In this document: positions 3-13,019 of the stretch, one piece after another
How positions within the stretch are numbered: the first letter of the stretch is position 1
How the letters are laid out: the number at the start of each line of letters is the position of its first letter
NCBI GenBank assembly: GCA_937897265.1
Contig: CALCPT010000169.1
Span: forward strand, 1 to 13,019
DNA length: 13,019 nt
Source: an uncultured Alcaligenaceae bacterium
GTDB taxonomy: Bacteria > Pseudomonadota > Gammaproteobacteria > Burkholderiales > Burkholderiaceae_B
Reading direction: 5' to 3'
Made by a program: the position numbers and the translations under genes
Notes under the pieces: model-generated
Told to the model about the DNA's origin: nothing
Seen by the model: the letters and a program-made list of their open reading frames with translations, nothing else
Database searches by the model: none

Positions 3-35
3 ACACTCTTTCCCTACACGACGCTCTTCCGATCT
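3..35 (+). other. Illumina TruSeq/P5-side sequencing adapter remnant
   Basis: These 33 bases match exactly, from memory, the 3' part of the Illumina P5-side read-1 adapter (it starts ACACTCTTTCC and ends CTTCCGATCT). It is not genomic DNA. Bases 1-2 (AG) differ from the CT that precedes this stretch in the single-index adapter, so they may be the last two bases of a dual-index i5 barcode; that part is inference. Genomic sequence starts at about base 36, inside parA. Read on the minus strand in the parA frame, the adapter encodes RSEERRVGKEC, a familiar adapter-derived peptide in draft assemblies. Confidence 0.97.
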
Positions 36-821
36 ACGGACACGCTCGATCACCTCAGCTCCGAAAGCAATATAGGCTTGCGCACCGCGTGAACTCGGGT
101 CATAGACAACGCCAGGCATGCCATGGCTCGGGGCCTCTGCAAGACGCACATTGCGTGGGACGACAGTCTTGAATACCTTGTCACCAAAATGCGCTTCTAG
201 TTGTGCAGAAACCTGTTGTTGCAAGGTGACGCGAGGATCAAACATGACACGCAATAATCCAATCAAACTTAGATCGGGATTGATGTTGCGGTGAACGCGT
301 TTAATCGTATTAACGAGGTCAGACAGTCCTTCAAGTGCGAAGTATTCACATTGCATTGGGATGATGACGCCGTGCGCCGCGGCTAAACCGTTCAAGGTCA
401 ACAAAGATAAAGTAGGTGGGCAATCGATCAAGACAAAATCATATTGCAGTTCAACTTTTGACAGGGCGTGTTTTAGCTGGAGCTCTCGATGGTCCATGCC
501 AACCAAATCAATCTCGGCACCTGATAATTCACGGTTAGAGGGCAGAACATCATACCCACCGCTCTCAGAAGCAACGACGGCCTCTTGAATTGTCGCCTCG
601 CCGATCAGTACCTGGTAGAGATTATGCGCAAGCGTACTTTTATCGATGCCACTGCCCATTGTCGAATTACCCTGTGGGTCGAGATCGATGAGCAAAACTC
701 TTTGTCGATGCTTAGCTAGGCCTGCCGCAAGATTGATCGCTGTTGTGGTTTTTCCAACACCGCCTTTTTGATTAGCAATACAAAAGACTCGGGCTGTCGT
801 TGGTGTGACGGGGATGTTCAT
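36..821 (-). CDS. parA: Chromosome-partitioning ATPase ParA/Soj, 3' end missing
   Basis: Deviant-Walker ParA ATPase that works with ParB and parS to segregate the newly replicated origin. The 262 genomic codons begin [18 protein letters not shown]. The signature Walker A KGGVGKTT is at residues 19-26 (signature Lys19, P-loop Lys24), the A' motif LLIDLDPQGN at 43-52, and Walker B FVLIDCPP at 129-136 (Asp133). Near the end, VVPRNVRLAEAPSHG and the GAQAY region are typical of chromosomal Soj proteins. The start ATG overlaps the rsmG stop (ATGA), so translation is probably coupled. Family members are about 255-265 residues, so only a few C-terminal residues are missing. The reading frame continues into the adapter with no stop; the tail RSEERRVGKEC must not be annotated as protein. 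parB would be expected immediately downstream, outside the window. Confidence 0.95.
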
Positions 822-1528
822 GTGGTTCCTTTCCGTTGCATCCAGACCAGACAGCGCTGGCCCTCAAGCTCAGGAACTGTCAGGGGTTCTATTGTTTGGG
901 CAAACCAAGTCGTATGGGCTTGAAGTGCTGTGAGTTCTTCGGTTGGTTCTTTACCTTTCATCGCTACCAAATTACCTCCGGCGCGAACATGGCGACCTGA
1001 GAGCTGTGCAAAGTCTTGCAGCGAAGCGAAGGCGCGTGAGGTCACTAAAGAGCTTTCAAGCGGCTCGAGAGTTTCGATTCGTGCATGTTGTGCTGAAAGG
1101 TTTGGTAACGCGAGGACCCCTGCCATTTGTCGCACAAACATGGCTTTTTTTTCTACGGCATCGACACAAGTCACATGCACTTGAGGAAGCATGATTGCAA
1201 GAATCACACCCGGCAGTCCTCCTCCTGATCCAACATCAACGATCGTAGGGGATTCCGTTGGTTGAAGCGCAAGGGCTCGGCTCACTGGTGTCACAAGTGA
1301 GAGGCTATCAAAAATGTGTTGAACGAGGGCTTGATCAGGATCTCGGATTGCGGTGAGGTTATAGGTCTTGTTCCACCGTAAGAGCTGCGAGAGATACTCA
1401 AGCAGGGCCGTCTGTTGAACAGGCTGAGTGGTAAGCCGTAAAAAGGCTAGCGCACGGGTGAGTCGCTCACTCGTGCTTGTTTTGACCGGTGAGGGTGCCT
1501 GTGTGGCCACGTTACGCGGCCTTGCCAT
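818..1528 (-). CDS. rsmG: 16S rRNA (guanine-N7) methyltransferase RsmG (GidB)
   Basis: SAM-dependent methyltransferase that makes m7G at the conserved G527 (E. coli numbering) of 16S rRNA. The protein has 236 residues. Visible are NLTAIRD at 57-63, HIFDSL at 71-76, the SAM-binding glycine loop [11 protein letters not shown] at 97-107, VDAVEKK at 122-128, SRAFASL at 164-170 and GGNLVAMKG at 184-192, all in family order. E. coli RsmG is about 207 residues; the extra length is a basic, Pro/Thr-rich N-terminal stretch of roughly 25 residues. The only ATG in this area is at 1528, inside the end of mnmG (17-base overlap), so the start is plausible, but a later non-ATG start cannot be excluded. The stop overlaps the parA start by four bases. 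The layout mnmG-rsmG-parA(-parB) is the classical origin-proximal operon. Confidence 0.95.
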
Positions 1529-3416
1529 ATTGGTGGCGCTTAAGATGGATTAATAGTAAAGAGATCGCCGCTGGCGTGACTCCAGAAATTCTGGAGGCTT
1601 GTCCGATTGTTTCCGGTCGGTGCACATTAAGTTTTTGACGAACCTCGAAAGACAAGCTTGTCACAGCACTAAAGTCGAGATCGGTAGGAATTGGCAACGT
1701 ATCTTGTGCTTGATGGCGGTCAACCTCATCTTGTTGGCGCGTAATGTAACCTTCGTATTTGATTTGTATTTGGACTTGTTCAGCCTCATCGCTAGGCGAA
1801 AGACCCGTTGGCAAATCAAACCCTTCTTGTAGGGGCATATTCACCAGGTTTTGATAAGATACGTTGGGGCGCTTAAGTAAATCGGAGAGTAAGTACTCGC
1901 GTTCGATTTCTTTACCGAGCGTTTTTACTGCGACAGCGGCGTCTAACATACGTGGATTTACCCATGTTGTGCGTAACCGAGCAACTTCATTTTCAACTGT
2001 TTCTCTCTTTTTGATGAAGGTGTTCCAGCGACGGTCATCGACTAAACCAAACTCTCTACCTTTTTCAGTTAAGCGCCAATCGGCATTATCTTCTCGCAAA
2101 CTTAAGCGGTATTCGGCACGAGACGTAAACATTCGATAGGGCTCTGTCACACCTTTTGTAATCAGGTCATCGATCAGTACGCCCATATAGGCCTGATCAC
2201 GACGCAAGATGAAGGGACTTTCGTTTCGAGCAGCACGTGCCGCATTGATACCGGCAATCAAACCTTGGGCCGCGGCCTCTTCGTATCCTGTTGTTCCGTT
2301 GATTTGTCCCGCAAAAAACAATCCTTGGATACTCTTGGTTTCAAGCGTTGCTTTTAATTCTCTCGGGTCAAAATAGTCGTATTCGATTGCATAACCAGGA
2401 CGAACAATATGAGAGTTTTCAAGGCCTTTCATTGAGCGAATCAACGCTAATTGAATATCAAAGGGCAAACTCGTTGAAACGCCATTTGGATAAATTTCGT
2501 GTGTTGTTAAACCTTCTGGCTCGAGGAATATTTGATGTGAATCTTTATCGGCAAAGCGATGGACTTTGTCTTCTATAGAAGGACAATATCTCGGACCAAC
2601 TCCTTCAATGACTCCACTGTACATAGGAGACCGATCCAGTCCACTACGAATGATTTCATGTGTTCGCGCGTTAGTATGCGTAACCCAACAAGGTACTTGT
2701 TTTGGATGAAGTGCTTGGGTCCCTAAATATGAAAATACTGGAACAGGATCTAAGTCACCTGGCTGTTCAGTGACCAGTGAATAATCAATTGTGCGACCAT
2801 CTATTCGAGGTGGCGTACCAGTTTTTAAACGCCCTTGCGGTAGTTTTAACTCTTTTAGTCGCGCGCCCAGTGTTGAAGCTGAGGGGTCTCCTGCTCGACC
2901 AGCGGAATAGTTTTGTAAGCCAATGTGAATCAGACCATTTAAAAAAGTCCCTGCTGTTAGGACAAGCGCCTTTGTTCGAAAGGTTATCCCCGATTGAGTC
3001 ACAGCCCCAACAACTCTATCTCCTTCAAGGATTAAATCATCTACTGACTGTTGAAATAACCAAAGGTTAGGTTGATTCTCGAGACGGCTACGAATGGCCT
3101 GTCTATATAGAACACGATCAGCTTGAGCGCGTGTTGCACGAACGGCTGGTCCTTTGGAGGCGTTTAAGATGCGAAATTGAATTCCCGCTTCATCAGTTGC
3201 TATCGCCATCGCACCACCTAAGGCATCTATTTCTTTAACTAGATGTCCTTTACCTATACCTCCGATCGAGGGATTACATGACATTTGCCCAAGTGTTTCA
3301 ATGTTGTGGGTTAGCAAAAGAGTCTTTGCTCCACTTCGCGCCGAGGCTAATGCTGCCTCTGTCCCAGCGTGACCGCCACCAACAACCAGAACATCAAATA
3401 TAGTAGGGTGATTCAT
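1512..3416 (-). CDS. mnmG: tRNA uridine 5-carboxymethylaminomethyl modification enzyme MnmG (GidA)
   Basis: FAD- and folate-dependent partner of MnmE. Together they install the (carboxymethyl)aminomethyl group on wobble U34 of a subset of tRNAs in the cytoplasm. Length is 634 residues, usual for the family. The N-terminal dinucleotide fold has [12 protein letters not shown] at 11-22. C47 lies in the [15 protein letters not shown] block. C278 in [14 protein letters not shown] matches the second conserved Cys (C277 in E. coli). [18 protein letters not shown] is at 368-385 and [25 protein letters not shown] at 414-438. The C-terminal helical MnmE/tRNA-interaction domain is intact. The ATG at 3416 gives the canonical N-terminus; no clear Shine-Dalgarno is visible and the leader is A+T-rich. 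It is the first gene of a leftward operon that starts next to the parS/DnaA-box region. mnmE is in the same window, about 2.9 kb away. Confidence 0.97.
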
Positions 3417-3447
3417 ATTTAATACATTTAATAGGCTTGGGGGATGG

Positions 3448-3475
3448 ATTATAGACTTGTCCCTTTAAATCTGAA
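3448..3475 (-). promoter_or_regulatory. Putative sigma70 promoter of the mnmG-rsmG-parA operon
   Basis: On the minus strand there is a perfect TATAAT at 3453-3448, with a TTCAGA (4 of 6 to TTGACA) at 3475-3470 and a 16-base spacer. It lies about 30 bases upstream of the mnmG ATG. The first parS site begins only four bases beyond the proposed -35, so ParB loading and spreading could influence this promoter. The -10 is convincing; the -35 is weak. Confidence 0.5.
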
Positions 3476-3478
3476 GTT

Positions 3479-3494
3479 TGTTTCACGTGAAACA
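3479..3494. promoter_or_regulatory. parS site 1 (ParB-binding palindrome)
   Basis: Perfect 16-bp palindrome TGTTTCACGTGAAACA, matching the widely conserved bacterial parS consensus. It is the loading site for ParB, the partner of the ParA encoded in this window. It lies just upstream of the putative mnmG promoter. An apparent small reading frame here (MFHVKH...) is simply parS read through in one frame. Confidence 0.95.
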
Positions 3495-3641
3495 TCAACG
3501 ATTTGAAGTTATTCGTTTCAATTCTTTCCTGAGACACTCTTTTCATTCATTACTTAACTATTCCTTTCATAGCACCACAAGCCTCAAAATGTCTGATTTC
3601 CAATTCACCGGTAGGCATCATCCAATCAATTCTCTCAATAA

Positions 3642-3657
3642 TGTTTCACGTGAAACA
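3642..3657. promoter_or_regulatory. parS site 2 (ParB-binding palindrome)
   Basis: Second copy of the same perfect 16-bp palindrome, 163 bp from the first, start to start. It lies 16 bp from the first DnaA-like box of the phased array, so segregation and initiation elements almost abut. I saw no third perfect copy in the window. Confidence 0.95.
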
Positions 3658-3673
3658 ATGATCAGGACGACTC

Positions 3674-3735
3674 TGTGGGTAACTTGGGTATAACGTGGGT
3701 ATAACTTATGGATAACTCTGTATAAATTGGGATAA
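3674..3735 (-). repeat. Helically phased array of DnaA-box-like 9-mers
   Basis: Six minus-strand 9-mers related to TTATNCACA start (left edge) at 3674, 3685, 3696, 3707, 3717 and 3727, giving periods of 11, 11, 11, 10 and 10 bp. Read on the minus strand they are TTACCCACA, TTATACCCA, TTATACCCA, TTATCCATA, TTATACAGA and TTATCCCAA. The first five differ from the consensus at one position, the sixth at two. All point the same way with gaps of 1-2 bp. In E. coli oriC, low-affinity DnaA sites separated by 2 bp in one orientation guide assembly of a DnaA filament; I infer the same role here. The spacing and identity are read directly; binding is inference. Confidence 0.7.
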
Positions 3736-3768
3736 ACAAGGGCACATGTAAATTTGACCGGGTTCTAT

Positions 3769-3777
3769 TGTGGATAA
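3769..3777 (-). promoter_or_regulatory. Perfect DnaA box (lobe 1, left)
   Basis: TGTGGATAA on the plus strand, that is TTATCCACA on the minus strand, the high-affinity DnaA consensus. It has the same orientation as the phased array to its left and would be the natural anchor for filament growth toward parS2. Confidence 0.85.
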
Positions 3778-3802
3778 ATCGGTGAGTAAATTGTTAATAT
3801 CA

Positions 3803-3833
3803 TGTGTATATAGTGTGTATATCCTGTGTATTG
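3803..3833 (-). repeat. 11-bp triplet repeat of TGTGTATAT-type units
   Basis: TGTGTATAT occurs at 3803-3811 and 3814-3822, and TGTGTATTG at 3825-3833, with an exact 11-bp period. On the minus strand the first two read ATATACACA, one mismatch from TTATNCACA; the third has two mismatches. They are therefore a second phased, same-orientation set of weak DnaA-box candidates inside a very A+T-rich stretch, and could equally be part of the unwinding element. Confidence 0.55.
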
Positions 3834-3881
3834 TTATTTACAACAAAAAAATTCACACCCTGGCTAAATAAGTATCTTTAT

Positions 3882-3890
3882 TTATCCACA
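3882..3890 (+). promoter_or_regulatory. Perfect DnaA box (lobe 1, right)
   Basis: TTATCCACA on the plus strand, opposite in orientation to the box at 3769, so the two diverge. It lies about 50 bases upstream of the aminotransferase ATG and may also affect that gene's promoter. Confidence 0.85.
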
Positions 3891-3941
3891 AGCACATAAA
3901 ACCAACCTTATATACGCCGACTCATTATTTAACCTTCAAAC

Positions 3942-5111
3942 ATGCTCATACAATCAAAATTGCCCGAGGTCGGGGCCACCATCTTTACTACGATGAGTAA
4001 GATGGCATTGGAATATCAGGCAATCAATTTGGGACAGGGGTTTCCTGACTTCAACACTGATTCTGCTCTGTTGCGCTTGGTGTCTGATGCAATGGAACAA
4101 GGTTTTAATCAATATCCCGCAATGGCTGGTGTAATGGCCTTACGCCAAGTCATTAGTCAAAAAATAGTTAATCTTTATCAACATCAGTACGATCCTGAAA
4201 CTGAAATCACTATTACCAGTGGTGCGACACAGGCAATCATGGCTAGCGTCCTTGCTTGTGTTGGCGTCGGTGATGAAGTCGTTGTATTGGAACCTTGCTA
4301 CGACTGCTATATCCCAGCTATTAAACTCGCTGGTGGTACCGCTATCAGTGTGCCCATGCGTGCGCCGAGTGAAACTAAACCTGTTTATAGCGTTGATTGG
4401 AGCTTGGTAAACGCTGCAATTACCAAAAAAACCAAGTTACTTATTGTAAATTTTCCGCACAACCCTACAGGCGCTGTCATCACCTCAGCTGACCTAGATG
4501 AACTAGAAAAATTAGTTCAACAGCACGATATCTTTTTATTATCAGACGAAGTTTATGAACACATCATTTTTGATGGTGTCCAACACCTTAGTCTTTCTAC
4601 CAGACCAACGTTAGCAGCCAGAAGCTTTGTCATTTCTTCCTTTGGAAAAACGACACACACAACAGGTTGGAAAATCGGCTACTGCTGCGCACCTAAACTC
4701 ATGACCACGGAACTTAGAAAAGTTCATCAGTTCATGGTTTTTACAGTACCGTCGCCCTTTCAACACGCCTTAGCGACTTATACAGCTAATGCAAACACCT
4801 ATCTAAACCTACCGAGTTTTTATCAAACCAAACGAGATTACCTTTCGGATGGATTACGACAAACCCGTTTTAAGGTTTTACCCAGTCCAGGAACCTTTTT
4901 TTTACTAGCTGACTACAGCGATATATCAGACCAAAAAGAAGCTGACTTTGCTATCTGGTTGACACAGACACACGGCGTTACGGTTATTCCGGTATCAGCG
5001 TTTTATCAATCATCCGATGCCCCCGCCTCGAATCACAAACTTGTTCGCTTTTGCTTTGCCAAACAGGAGGCCACCCTTGATTTAGCACTTGAACGTTTAG
5101 CGAAGGTTTGA
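3942..5111 (+). CDS. ybdL: Methionine aminotransferase, YbdL-type (PLP fold type I)
   Basis: Class I/II aminotransferase of 389 residues that closely follows my recollection of E. coli YbdL along its whole length. YbdL transfers the amino group of methionine (and some aromatic or His substrates) to a 2-oxo acid using pyridoxal phosphate. The start aligns (QSKLPEVGATIF), then come INLGQGFPDF at 28-37, Y120 in EPCYDCY (ring stacking), N174 in NFPHNPTG, D202 in SDEVYEH, the Schiff-base Lys236 in SSFGKT, TGWKIGYC at 241-248 and the carboxylate-binding Arg369 in LVRFCFA. All key residues are present, so it should be active. No good Shine-Dalgarno precedes the ATG. It stands alone, flanked on both sides by origin-like non-coding DNA, and is not part of the usual conserved cluster. 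Substrate preference (methionine versus kynurenine or glutamine-type) is inferred from similarity only. Confidence 0.9.
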   Translation: MLIQSKLPEVGATIFTTMSKMALEYQAINLGQGFPDFNTDSALLRLVSDAMEQGFNQYPAMAGVMALRQVISQKIVNLYQHQYDPETEITITSGATQAIMASVLACVGVGDEVVVLEPCYDCYIPAIKLAGGTAISVPMRAPSETKPVYSVDWSLVNAAITKKTKLLIVNFPHNPTGAVITSADLDELEKLVQQHDIFLLSDEVYEHIIFDGVQHLSLSTRPTLAARSFVISSFGKTTHTTGWKIGYCCAPKLMTTELRKVHQFMVFTVPSPFQHALATYTANANTYLNLPSFYQTKRDYLSDGLRQTRFKVLPSPGTFFLLADYSDISDQKEADFAIWLTQTHGVTVIPVSAFYQSSDAPASNHKLVRFCFAKQEATLDLALERLAKV

Positions 5112-5233
5112 TTTAAACACGATAAAACAGTGAAAATAATTTTTATAAGAAACAACTTTTTGGTTACCGTGATGTCTTGGTGTTTTATCTCTTTTATTGT
5201 TCTTATATATAAAAACTAATGGATAATAAGGCC

Positions 5234-5242
5234 TGTGGATAA
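5234..5242 (-). promoter_or_regulatory. Perfect DnaA box (lobe 2, left)
   Basis: TGTGGATAA on the plus strand (TTATCCACA on the minus strand). It sits immediately left of the most A+T-rich segment, a common placement for the anchoring DnaA box next to an unwinding element. Confidence 0.85.
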
Positions 5243-5269
5243 GTGGTATAAATATAAATATCTTATTAT

Positions 5270-5282
5270 TATCAATTAGTTA
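5270..5282 (+). promoter_or_regulatory. IHF consensus site
   Basis: TATCAATTAGTTA matches WATCAANNNNTTR at every specified position and has an A/T tract upstream. It lies between the DnaA boxes at 5234 and 5297, comparable to the IHF site between R1 and R5M in E. coli oriC. IHF bending there is inferred. Confidence 0.6.
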
Positions 5283-5296
5283 CGTAATATTTATCT

Positions 5297-5305
5297 TGTG
5301 AATAA
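5297..5305 (-). promoter_or_regulatory. DnaA box (TTATTCACA)
   Basis: TGTGAATAA on the plus strand. It fits TTATNCACA exactly, with T at the variable fifth position. Same orientation as the box at 5234, from which it is separated by the A+T-rich segment and the IHF site. Confidence 0.7.
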
Positions 5306-5411
5306 CCTCTGTTTAGTTTTGTGGACTAAGTTGAATAAGTTTCGCTCCTCAACAGTTGTGTTGAGTTACCCCTAGTTCGTGCACAGCTTGTTCACAAGCC
5401 GCTAGCCCTTG

Positions 5412-5420
5412 TTATCCACA
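5412..5420 (+). promoter_or_regulatory. Perfect DnaA box (lobe 2, right)
   Basis: TTATCCACA on the plus strand, opposite to the 5234 box, repeating the divergent arrangement of lobe 1. A one-mismatch box TTGTTCACA (5388-5396) lies just upstream in the same orientation. Confidence 0.85.
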
Positions 5421-5491
5421 GGTATATTTTTTGTAAAAAAATTCATTTGATGCGTAGAAACAACACATATGTTGCAATAACTGACCTCAAT

Positions 5492-5497
5492 AAAGGA
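5492..5497 (+). promoter_or_regulatory. Shine-Dalgarno of the SDR gene
   Basis: AAAGGA with a 5-base spacer before the ATG at 5503. It fixes the start of the dehydrogenase and is one of the clearer ribosome binding sites in the window. Confidence 0.75.
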
Positions 5498-5502
5498 TTG
5501 TT

Positions 5503-10416: not shown

Positions 10417-10448
10417 TGTGGATAACCTTGCCTCTGACAGGGTAGAAT
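10417..10448 (+). promoter_or_regulatory. dnaA promoter overlapping a perfect DnaA box
   Basis: TAGAAT at 10443-10448 is a 5-of-6 match to the -10 consensus, about 23 bases before the dnaA ATG. A perfect DnaA box, TGTGGATAA (10417-10425), covers the expected -35 area; no good -35 hexamer is seen. This arrangement suggests autoregulation by DnaA. The rest of the 179-base rpmH-dnaA gap shows no DnaA-box cluster, so it is unlikely to be the origin. Confidence 0.6.
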
Positions 10449-10470: not shown

Positions 10471-11949
10471 ATGAACCAGTTTTGGCAGTCCTGCGTCTTA
10501 CACTTAGAGCAGGAGTTTCCTCCCCAGCAAATCAGCGCGTGGATACGTCCGCTGATTCCGCTTGCCTACGATGAGGCGCAGGCATGTCTACGGCTGTCCG
10601 CACCGAATCGATTCAAGCTTGACTGGGTGCGTAAAAACTTTGCGCATCAAATCGAAACCTTCGCTACCACTTGGTACAAACGACCCGTACAAGTTTTGTT
10701 TGAGTTGCCGGTACCAGAACAAGATCTGCGCGTACCTCGCGCAAATGGCAATCCGCAGTACGACGCCGTTTCAAGTCAAAGTGACGCCGCAACACACGCG
10801 CAGCTATCTAGTCTGAATGACAACGCACTAAACGCGTCTCACATACAAGCGGGCCAAACGACGGTGCTTGCAGGAGCCTTGAGTGGTGTGTCGACGGCCC
10901 AGTCGGTTACGTCACCGGCCGATGAGCGCTCACGCCTAAATGTCGAACTTATCTTCGACAATTTTGTAACCGGCAAGGCCAACCAACTTGCTCGGGCGGC
11001 TGCATTACAAGTTGCCGAAAATCCCGGTACCTCATACAACCCGTTGTTCTTGTATGGCGGGGTTGGTTTAGGCAAGACACATTTGATTCATGCGATTGGT
11101 AATGCGTTGCTCGCAAGTGGTAAAGGTGCGCGTGTGAGATATGTTCACGCAGACCAGTACGTCTCAGATGTCGTGAAAGCATATCAACGCAAAGCGTTTG
11201 ATGATTTCAAACGCTATTACCACTCTCTTGATTTGCTCTTGATCGATGATATTCAATTTTTTTCTGGAAAAAATCGAACACAAGAAGAGTTCTTTTACGC
11301 GTTTGAGGCAATGGTCGCGCAGCGTAAGCAAATCATTATCACGAGCGATACGTACCCTAAAGAGCTGTCGGGCATTGATACGCGCTTGATCTCAAGATTT
11401 GACTCGGGGCTTACCGTTGCGATTGAACCCCCAGAGCTCGAGATGCGAGTCGCAATTTTGTTGCGCAAGGCCGAGCAAGAGGGCGTCACACTACCTGAAG
11501 ATGTTGCTTTTTTTATTGCCAAACATTTGCGTAGCAACGTTCGAGAACTTGAAGGGGCGCTCAAAAAAGTTGTAGCGTACGCGCGCTTTCACGGTCGAGA
11601 AGTCGCCAACGTCGATATTTGTAAAGACGCCTTAAAAGACTTGCTATCAGCGTCTAGCGGACAGGTGACTGTCGAGAACATTCAAAAAACAGTCGCTGAT
11701 TATTACAAAATGAAGGTCGCCGATATGTATTCAAAGCGGCGACCTGCCAACATTGCCATGCCGCGTCAGGTTGCAATGTATCTTGCCAAAGAGCTGACGC
11801 AAAAAAGCTTGCCAGAAATTGGCGATCTGTTTGGTGGTCGCGATCACACCACCGTGTTACATGCGGTGAGAAAGATCACCGATCTACGTGCGAAACAAGC
11901 AGACTTTAACCATACGCTGCATGTGCTTGAACAAACTTTAAAGGGATAA
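10471..11949 (+). CDS. dnaA: Chromosomal replication initiator DnaA
   Basis: AAA+ ATPase that binds DnaA boxes and opens oriC. It has 492 residues. Domain I (about 1-80, [25 protein letters not shown]) is followed by a variable, Ser/Ala/Gln-rich domain II linker (about 81-155). Domain III has Walker [10 protein letters not shown] at 196-204, Walker [10 protein letters not shown] at 255-263, the box VII region [16 protein letters not shown] at 303-318 and sensor II RELEGAL at 358-364. Domain IV DNA-binding helices carry [20 protein letters not shown] and the signature [10 protein letters not shown] at 456-465. The protein is intact. The start aligns with family N-termini although no good Shine-Dalgarno precedes it. 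dnaN follows three bases after the stop, as an operon. Confidence 0.98.
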
Positions 11950-11952
11950 TCC

Positions 11953-13019
11953 ATGCAACTTGTCCAGACCCCCCGCGATGCTTTACTCAAACCGCTATCG
12001 ACGGTTGCCGGAATTGTTGAGCGGCGTCATACATTGCCAATTCTTGCCAACATTTTGGTGCGCAAGCAGGCGCAACGGGTATCGTTCATTGCAACGGACC
12101 TCGAAGTACAAATCACCACGCATGCTGATTTTGGCACCGGCGCCGAAAGCGAGTCGCTCACTGTCGCTGCGCGCAAGCTTTTAGACATCTTGCGCGCCTT
12201 GCCCGACACCGGCGACGTTAAGCTCTCAACGACCGGTGGCAAGCTTGCTGTTCAAACGGGTAAAAGCCGCTTTTCGCTACAAACGCTTGCAGCGACAGAG
12301 TTTCCGACAATGACACAGCCTGAGCGCTGGGATGTCTCGTTAACACTGCCGCGTAAAACACTTAAGCATCTGTTTAACATGGCGCACTTTGCCATGGCGC
12401 AACAAGACATCCGCTATTACTTAAACGGAATGTTGATGGTGTTTGAGCCAGGTCTGTTGCGCGCAGTGGCAACCGATGGACATCGTCTAGCCCATAGCTC
12501 AACCGCAGTTGAGGGTGTGCTTGCGAAGCACGAAGTGATCGTGCCACGCAAAACTGTGCTCGAGATGCAGCGCCTGTTAGACGAATCCGATGAGCCCGTC
12601 ACGATCGATGTCGCGCCAGGTCAGATTCGCTTTTCGTTTGGTCATGTCGAGTTAGTGTCCAAACTGGTCGAGGGCAAGTTTCCTGACTTCAATCGTGTGA
12701 TCCCCTCAAATTACACACGGCATTTTGATGTTTCGCGTGAAATCTTGCAGGGGTGCTTGCAGCGCGCTGCAATTTTGACGACCGATAAATTCAGGAGCGT
12801 TCGCTTGCAATTGGGACAACACCTGTTAAAGATTTCTTCGACAAATGCCGAGCAAGAAGAGGCGCAAGAAGAGATCGATGTCGATTACGAACACGAGGCT
12901 TTAGACGTTGGATTTAACGTCAGCTATTTGCTAGATTTCTTAGCCAACGTCAAAGCCGAAACGATTCGCTGGTCTGTCATGCCCGATGCGAACGCCTCAG
13001 CCCTTATTACTTTGCCTGA
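11953..13019 (+). CDS. dnaN: DNA polymerase III beta sliding clamp, 3' end missing
   Basis: Ring-shaped processivity clamp; 355 complete codons are present and the frame is still open at the edge. The three clamp domains are recognisable: LLKPLSTVAGIVERRHTLPILANIL near the start, FAMAQQDIRYYLNGML and ATDGHRLAHSS in the middle, RAAILTTDKFRSVRL and NAEQEEAQEEIDVDY, then the C-terminal domain GFNVSYLLDFL to ALITLP. E. coli DnaN is 366 residues, so roughly 10-15 residues including the hydrophobic YVVMPMR-type tail are missing. The final TGA of the window is out of frame: its GA starts the next codon (Glu or Asp). AAGGGA overlapping the dnaA stop serves as Shine-Dalgarno. Confidence 0.96.
   Translation, partial: MQLVQTPRDALLKPLSTVAGIVERRHTLPILANILVRKQAQRVSFIATDLEVQITTHADFGTGAESESLTVAARKLLDILRALPDTGDVKLSTTGGKLAVQTGKSRFSLQTLAATEFPTMTQPERWDVSLTLPRKTLKHLFNMAHFAMAQQDIRYYLNGMLMVFEPGLLRAVATDGHRLAHSSTAVEGVLAKHEVIVPRKTVLEMQRLLDESDEPVTIDVAPGQIRFSFGHVELVSKLVEGKFPDFNRVIPSNYTRHFDVSREILQGCLQRAAILTTDKFRSVRLQLGQHLLKISSTNAEQEEAQEEIDVDYEHEALDVGFNVSYLLDFLANVKAETIRWSVMPDANASALITLP

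Follow-up and report, generated by a model that had tools for sequence, protein, structure and literature searches.

Two non-coding gaps around an aminotransferase gene in an Alcaligenaceae bacterium: a candidate E. coli-type oriC and a parS-linked array of DnaA boxes

Where does the chromosome of an uncultured Alcaligenaceae bacterium begin its replication, and does it use one DnaA-binding region or two? The question is raised by a 13,019-nucleotide stretch of DNA (the window), which is one entire contig from a fragmented 3.75 Mb metagenome-assembled genome, and in which two gaps with clustered DnaA boxes lie on either side of a single metabolic gene:

1512-3416, minus strand: mnmG (gidA); NCBIfam TIGR00136, E 2e-271
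3417-3941, no strand: gap 1, non-coding
3942-5111, plus strand: spacer gene for a methionine aminotransferase-type pyridoxal phosphate (PLP) enzyme, reading towards oriC; NF006569, 576 bits (cut-off 420), and Pfam PF00155
5112-5502, no strand: gap 2, non-coding

A first-pass annotation had proposed that the two gaps form a bipartite origin split by the aminotransferase gene. Much of this holds: an origin very probably lies here, DnaA-box clusters occur in both gaps and gap 2 contains a candidate DNA unwinding element (DUE), but the gaps are not equivalent lobes. The reading put forward here, which we consider probable on the whole, is that gap 2 would be a complete E. coli-type oriC and gap 1 a separate, accessory DnaA element linked to parS.

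Gap 2 and the start of replication

To judge from its layout, gap 2 is very probably a complete E. coli-type origin; that the core origin lies at this gap is held with high confidence. Its parts, including a predicted site for integration host factor (IHF), are as follows:

5183-5233, plus strand: candidate DUE, AT-rich, with conserved TATATATAA (17-genome alignment)
within 5183-5233, plus strand: possible imperfect DnaA-trio stretch before R1 (tentative, by eye)
5234-5242, minus strand: R1-like perfect DnaA box (box scan and alignment)
5270-5282, plus strand: IHF-like site TATCAATTAGTTA, lying between the R1-like and R5M-like boxes (consensus match)
5297-5305, minus strand: R5M-like DnaA box TTATTCACA (box scan and alignment)
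5377-5396, plus strand: two weak DnaA sites (5377 and 5388), on the strand of R4 (box scan)
5412-5420, plus strand: R4-like perfect DnaA box (box scan and alignment)

The order -- DUE, R1 on the minus strand, IHF site, R5M on the minus strand, weak sites, R4 on the plus strand -- is that of E. coli oriC, where the roles of these parts are described in PMC6727663. The distance from R1 to R4 is 178 bp here and 180 in E. coli, and gap 2 lies on the same side of mnmG and in the same orientation, the gene order in E. coli K-12 being rsmG(-), mnmG(-), oriC, mioC. Gap 2 differs from the E. coli origin in the spacing of its inner sites and is without a clear R2; also unlike E. coli, a gene here separates mnmG from oriC, and an extra DnaA array and parS lie beyond that gene. 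As the first-pass annotation had stated, the gap combines the lowest G+C (0.307 at 5101-5400, the minimum among 300-bp windows) with an IHF-like site, WATCAANNNNTTR at 5270 being the only match to the strict IHF consensus in the 13-kb window; the least stable 50 bp of the window, 5247-5296, fall between R1 and the R5M-like box. From this anatomy we infer that DnaA and IHF would bind here and that the AT-rich block would be the site of unwinding.

Conservation was followed in 17 genomes of the genus with complete gaps; of 24 genus relatives, those left out were L054 and L057, in which the contig stops within the aminotransferase gene, and L020, L024, L040, L050, L052 and L060, in which it stops before that gene. 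Gap 2 aligns in all 17. In the alignment TATATATAA is kept, as are the ends at R1 and R4; most rows also keep CTCTGTTT and the R5M-like box and, by eye, show a core similar to the IHF-like site. The perfect minus/plus pair is spaced by exactly 178 bp in nine of these genomes and by 115 bp in two, with one box imperfect in the other six, and the plus-strand array exceeds all of 60 shuffles in 16, the minus-strand array being weaker (mean 14.1). Shuffles were first-order Markov in the array tests on genus, family and named loci, and dinucleotide-preserving for the score of the 3-kb region given below; the array score, position weight matrix, thresholds and parS null model were of our own choosing. 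Of 32 genus genomes, 13 have the perfect pair, each at a single place, and the reversed control has none. Searched across the order, where it is too strict to serve as a survey, the exact pair was matched in 12 of 300 genomes, six among the ten family members drawn (window included) and six in other families. An oriC profile, built from the genus gaps together with the oriC matches of named relatives, matches the window at gap 2 only, even at E up to 10.

The DnaA boxes of the window, and the phasing of the weak ones, are far above chance. Five perfect TTATCCACA boxes are present (3769-, 3882+, 5234-, 5412+ and 10417-), four in the gaps and one in the dnaA promoter, all re-found where they had first been noted; 0.08 would be expected, and none of 200 shuffles reached five. 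The perfect box is not enriched over the genome as a whole, which has 13 against 16 in the reversed control, five of the 13 sitting in the window. Box-like sites (TTWTNCACA, at most one mismatch) number 19.0 per kb in gap 1 and 15.3 per kb in gap 2, against 1.2-4.3 per kb in five other stretches of the window.

GC skew, to which the first-pass annotation had looked as a check, supports a start of replication at gap 2. It was followed in 39 named loci, mostly from Achromobacter and Bordetella and four of Pigmentiphaga type, whose oriC profile match lies 5.4-8.3 kb past the aminotransferase gene and, in the 38 that hold mnmG, 8.3-14 kb from mnmG. At -7, -6 and -5 kb from oriC the skew is negative in all 39; the mean of each 1-kb bin stays below zero between -10 and -2 kb and is above zero at -1 kb and beyond, and the cumulative minimum over the whole locus falls within 4.1 kb of oriC in all 39 and within 1 kb in 22. 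For a genus member with a 1-Mb contig, the minimum over a 400-kb stretch lies 1.4 kb from R1; the dnaA box is 3.0 kb and the gap-1 box 3.9 kb away from it. Skew at fourfold sites in the genus is negative for the aminotransferase gene in 15 of 17 genomes (positive in none) and positive for the SDR gene on the other side of gap 2 in 7 of 10, a pattern that agrees with a change of sign at this gap; the gene-level values that misfit are taken up with the alternatives.

Phased DnaA boxes and parS in gap 1

Gap 1 is built on another plan, the elements of which are:

3479-3494, no strand: parS site 1 (TGTTTCACGTGAAACA), full 16-bp site
3642-3657, no strand: parS site 2, full 16-bp site, 16 bp before array 1
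3674-3736, minus strand: DnaA array 1, made up of about six box-like 9-mers, all in one orientation, that follow one another every 10-11 bp (box scan, shuffle test)
3769-3833, minus strand: DnaA array 2, again about six box-like 9-mers; the perfect box 3769-3777 comes first and weak sites follow it every 11-12 bp (box scan)
3882-3890, plus strand: perfect DnaA box, not conserved in the genus (box scan, genus comparison)

The phased weak boxes and parS that had been described for this gap are both present, the latter as two full sites, and DnaA is likely to bind here. The 3-kb region has a five-site array score of 48.8, and 100 shuffles of it reach 17.8 at most. In a period scan of the genus arrays that permits one base of slack, the best period is 11 (score 34.5), compared with 28.3 at 12, 24.1 at 10 and at most 13.2 elsewhere between 7 and 15. 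Minus-strand arrays in gap 1 exceed all 60 shuffles in every one of the 17 genus genomes, and a perfect minus-strand box is found there in 11. A pattern of phased triples was found in the window's own genome in gap 1 only (array 1; two overlapping matches, none in the control), while 32 genus genomes gave 42 matches, in 19 genomes, against 13 control matches; several of the 42 fall outside gap 1, on other contigs. This pattern is strict, the 13 genomes without a match including G005 and G013, both of which have a gap 1 that clears the array test. A low-stability stretch is also present in gap 1 (3790-3839); there is no match to the strict IHF consensus in this gap, weaker sites being possible.

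Two further suggestions about gap 1 did not survive. A minus-strand box on the left and a plus-strand box on the right occur as a perfect pair in both gaps, as the first-pass annotation had noted, but the gap-1 pair is peculiar to this genome: only 2 of the 17 genus genomes have a perfect plus-strand box in gap 1, and the symmetric pair 3769/3882 was set aside as its key feature. Gap 1 was also considered as a second copy of gap 2 and rejected, since oriC profiles match gap 2 alone in the window; among the genus loci listed, the strong profile matches are gap 2, with gap 1 giving at most a weak reverse match (L083, E 0.24).

Beyond the genus, 59 mnmG-selected loci of the family were surveyed out of 60 fetched (L212 was omitted, having no mnmG start). 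An oriC was found in 48 of these genomes and the aminotransferase gene in 48, and the order mnmG, aminotransferase(+), oriC in 43; the set is not fully independent, in that the profile derives partly from aminotransferase-selected loci and some genomes belong to both sets. The PLP enzyme, which had been thought unusual as a spacer, is indeed unlike the spacers of the published bipartite origins examined, but in this family it is the usual neighbour. Arrays between mnmG and the next landmark are significant on the minus strand in 35 of the 59 genomes and on the plus strand in 6, and are not detected in 18; the test reached up to 4 kb from mnmG, and L227 and L238, whose arrays lie further out, are counted among the 18. 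At 40 shuffles, chance alone would let about one or two of the 59 through, and some of the positives, such as L193 (6.8 against 5.2), are borderline. Among the 43 genomes with the order given above, 31 have an array on either strand and 26 one on the minus strand; among 57 named loci with mnmG and oriC, which were aminotransferase-selected and include four of the genus, an array scores above 40 shuffles in 47. Conservation of both gaps, which the first-pass annotation had proposed as a check, is found in all 17 genus genomes; gap-1-type arrays go undetected in the 18 of the wider family.

The arrays keep company with parS. Outside oriC, 62 arrays score above 20, in 47 of 76 loci, and 34 of the 62 lie within 100 bp of a parS site, where random placement gives a mean of 13.6 and a maximum of 23 in 152 draws; the 62 are not independent, several coming from one genome. 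In L039, gap 1 carries three head-to-tail copies of a 148-bp unit made up of parS and a DnaA array, and in L227 parS, array, aminotransferase gene and oriC stay together as a block 10.9 kb from mnmG. Since the arrays are close to parS more often than random placement gives, a partition-linked or regulatory role for gap 1 is favoured.

As for what that role might be, ATP-DnaA would be expected to form a filament on the same-strand gap-1 sites with their 11-bp period, next to ParB. Gap 1 would then most likely give DnaA a place of action at the partition site, in the manner of Caulobacter, and could modulate the supply of DnaA or the action of ParA at the origin, which lies about 1.4 kb off; it would not be a half on which origin firing depends. 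In Caulobacter, DnaA binds to parS and can set partitioning in motion when there is too little of it for replication (PMC6399470); a further precedent is B. subtilis Soj, which acts on DnaA (PMC5295017). In Caulobacter, as here, DnaA sites adjoin parS near the origin, at a separation in the window (predicted from sequence) of 16 bp; those of the window are grouped in arrays with an 11-bp phase, and the comparison is of the position of the sites beside parS. A second DnaA array beside the partitioning sites may in this way tie copying of the chromosome to its separation.

Alternative readings of the two gaps

An accessory, parS-linked array in gap 1 is favoured over a co-essential half-origin on four grounds: the arrays lie close to parS, they are duplicated together with it, gap 2 has a whole E. 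coli-type layout, and the arrays are distributed patchily in the family; it is from these that we infer the role of gap 1. Several observations weigh against it, or against placing an E. coli-type origin at gap 2. Gap 1 is kept in every genus genome tested, as would also be expected of a necessary lobe. The link to parS is not cleanly separable from a link to oriC, because both usually lie within about 2 kb of the array (the median distance from array to oriC is 1.77 kb); in L207 and L234 the array adjoins oriC and is far from parS, and in L205 and L246 two further arrays are at dnaA promoters. The gap-2 profile matches the E. coli oriC region weakly (7.0 and 4.6 bits, on the opposite strand), and the resemblance is therefore one of layout. 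On the side of skew, the bins at -14, -12 and -11 kb in the 39 loci have a slightly positive mean, with values near zero at the far left, and fourfold-site skew is positive for mnmG in 16 of 17 genus genomes and for rsmG in 12 of 17, the wrong sign for a left arm; with gene-level values thus mixed, the locus-wide skew of the 39 relatives has been given more weight.

The alternative that survives best, possible but in our estimation doubtful, is a true bipartite origin, in which DnaA bound to both gaps would meet and loop out the aminotransferase gene and both lobes would be needed for normal firing. A divided origin is defined in PMC4285127 as two DnaA-box subregions, one with a DUE, and on sequence the two gaps, with their conserved DUE candidate on one side, fit that formal definition; their span of about 2 kb agrees with that of the divided origins published there, and both are retained throughout the 17 genus genomes. 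The box-like 9-mers of gap 1 are mostly 2 bp apart, as are the five boxes of H. pylori oriC1, with their 2-bp spacers (PMC8235120), and the weak sites of E. coli, where 2 bp between sites amounts to 11 bp from start to start (PMC6727663). By analogy gap 1 can be likened to that lobe of the H. pylori origin which is without a DUE, and just as well to a DnaA platform linked to parS, of the Caulobacter type. Like the bipartite origins of H. pylori and B. subtilis, the locus has two DnaA-box clusters parted by one gene, with the DUE (here a candidate) in one and a phased cluster in the other (PMC8235120, PMC4285127). Unlike them, its spacer is an aminotransferase gene, where that of bipartite origins is usually dnaA (PMC4285127); its DUE-candidate part is E. 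coli-like by itself, and the spacing in relatives is very elastic. The two AT-rich gaps that had been read as paired lobes are both real and non-coding, but the whole E. coli-type layout, the sole profile match and the skew switch of relatives belong to gap 2 alone. A second lobe needed for firing also sits poorly with the 18 of 59 family genomes in which the shuffle test gives no array (two of them have one further out), and with the Achromobacter/Bordetella-type loci, in which oriC is 8.3-14 kb from mnmG with several open reading frames between them and weaker arrays on the mnmG side.

Joining rather than opposing the two gaps, a two-module origin in one family of Betaproteobacteria can be put forward tentatively, though we would not expect it to prove correct in full: an E. 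coli-type oriC and a hybrid centromere-initiator module, made up of parS and, a short way on, an 11-bp-phased single-strand DnaA array, with ATP-DnaA filaments joining ParB to the orisome and one DnaA threshold setting both firing and segregation. Either module is multiplied in relatives, as parS-array repeats (L039) and as two oriC-like copies in 17 of the 59 genomes.

It is improbable that gap 1 is simply a site near the origin for DnaA titration or for control of the DnaA nucleotide state, like datA, DARS or the B. subtilis clusters. Many sites do lie near oriC, varying in position and number between genomes, and removal of six B. subtilis clusters outside oriC leads to early initiation (PMC5295017). 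Titration would not, however, need the single-strand 11-bp phasing or the closeness to parS. IHF acts at datA and DARS2 (PMC13036160), and gap 1 is without a strict IHF consensus match. The likeness to the B. subtilis clusters and to E. coli datA/DARS lies in an additional DnaA-box cluster outside the core origin (PMC5295017), and the difference in that the array of the window is less than 2 kb from oriC, linked to parS and without that match.

Less probable still is transcription control, by which DnaA at gap 1 would regulate the divergent promoters of mnmG and of the aminotransferase gene, and transcription running past the end of the latter would enter oriC from the DUE side. Gap 1 does separate two divergent genes, the stretch from the end of the aminotransferase gene to oriC yielded no terminator-like site, and the orientation of that gene towards oriC is kept in the 43 of 59 genomes; against this, 10.9 kb separate the L227 array from mnmG, L240 has an array ahead of oriC and yielded no aminotransferase gene, and in Achromobacter that gene is about 5.5 kb from oriC. 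A start in the dnaA promoter or the dnaA-dnaN region instead of gap 2, as boxes suggest in some other families of the order, is very improbable indeed: the perfect dnaA-promoter box is conserved in the genus and boxes or arrays directly follow dnaA in L064, L066 and L073, but the window has a single perfect box near dnaA and none after it, and the skew switch and family conservation indicate gap 2.

Split origins, and DnaA at parS, are already known. What is new, as far as a search of the literature shows, is the combination of an E. coli-type oriC with a DnaA array that has an 11-bp phase and adjoins parS, the two being parted by a metabolic gene. Among the matches listed from the open-access literature (titles and the starts of abstracts) there was no experimental study of oriC in Alcaligenaceae or Bordetella or of parS-phased DnaA arrays. 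Another Betaproteobacterium, Burkholderia cenocepacia, resembles the window in that its chromosome 1 origin has boxes, repeats, an IHF site and an AT-rich block, a likeness that is drawn from the published description; the elements there are reported as dispersed and the exact origin as uncertain (PMC4948915). Split origins have been described for a few Gram-positives, Mollicutes and H. pylori, and why some bacterial origins are split is stated to be unknown (PMC4285127). A family whose core origin is readable, and whose second DnaA array, in most cases next to parS, lies some 0.2 to 7 kb from it and goes undetected in some members, offers a natural series for testing whether a second lobe serves unwinding, DnaA supply or segregation, and the existence of named cultured strains in the genus makes such experiments practical.

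Neighbouring genes and duplicated oriC-like copies

Other features of the window are:

3-821, minus strand: parA-like ATPase gene, cut by the contig end (open-ended reading frame, KGGVGKTT motif)
3448-3475, minus strand: candidate mnmG promoter TTCAGA-16-TATAAT (consensus match alone)
10417-10425, minus strand: perfect DnaA box, probably autoregulatory, 54 bp upstream of the dnaA start
10471-11949, plus strand: dnaA (family search; C-terminal DNA-binding domain matches chain 1j1v, E 1.2e-31)

The complete gene order is parA-like(-), rsmG(-), mnmG(-), gap 1, aminotransferase(+), gap 2, SDR(+), mnmE(-), yidC(-), yidD(-), rnpA(-), dnaA(+) and a plus-strand frame at 11953. Family searches covered the aminotransferase, SDR, mnmG, mnmE, dnaA, yidD and rnpA products; rsmG and yidC are putative names, the frame at 11953 is presumably dnaN by its position, the parA-like label is given for the ParA signature motif, and chain 1j1v is domain IV of E. 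coli DnaA bound to a DnaA box. Positions 1-35, at the contig end, resemble an Illumina adapter, on the reverse strand, and the final residues of the parA-like translation appear to be an artefact of the assembly. Three promoter-like sites occur in the region, fewer than the shuffle mean of 6.5. The dnaA-promoter box stands at 54 bp in 13 of the 14 genus loci that hold dnaA and the box, and at 53 bp in the other. In L064, L066 and L073, from other families of the order, the boxes or arrays just downstream of dnaA suggest an origin between dnaA and dnaN; the window's own family has its origin beside mnmG.

The 17 family genomes with at least two oriC-like copies include L193, L207 and L239. Two such copies are also present in L110, L112, L122, L124, L126, L154 and L156, where they are 67-71% identical; a perfect minus-strand and a perfect plus-strand box are found in each copy in L110, L112, L122, L126 and L154, while one copy lacks the plus-strand box in L124 and L156. 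The duplicated copies are mostly in tandem, with 0.1-2.4 kb between them; the second match in L228 is short and marginal (48 bits). Outside the family, L061:15000-15850 (genome G030, from another family of the order) contains two copies that are 81% identical, each bearing a TAGTAGTAGTAG run -- a clean DnaA-trio candidate -- before its minus-strand box. In L140 and L204, oriC-like copies of opposite orientation, 61% identical, lie on either side of the aminotransferase gene.

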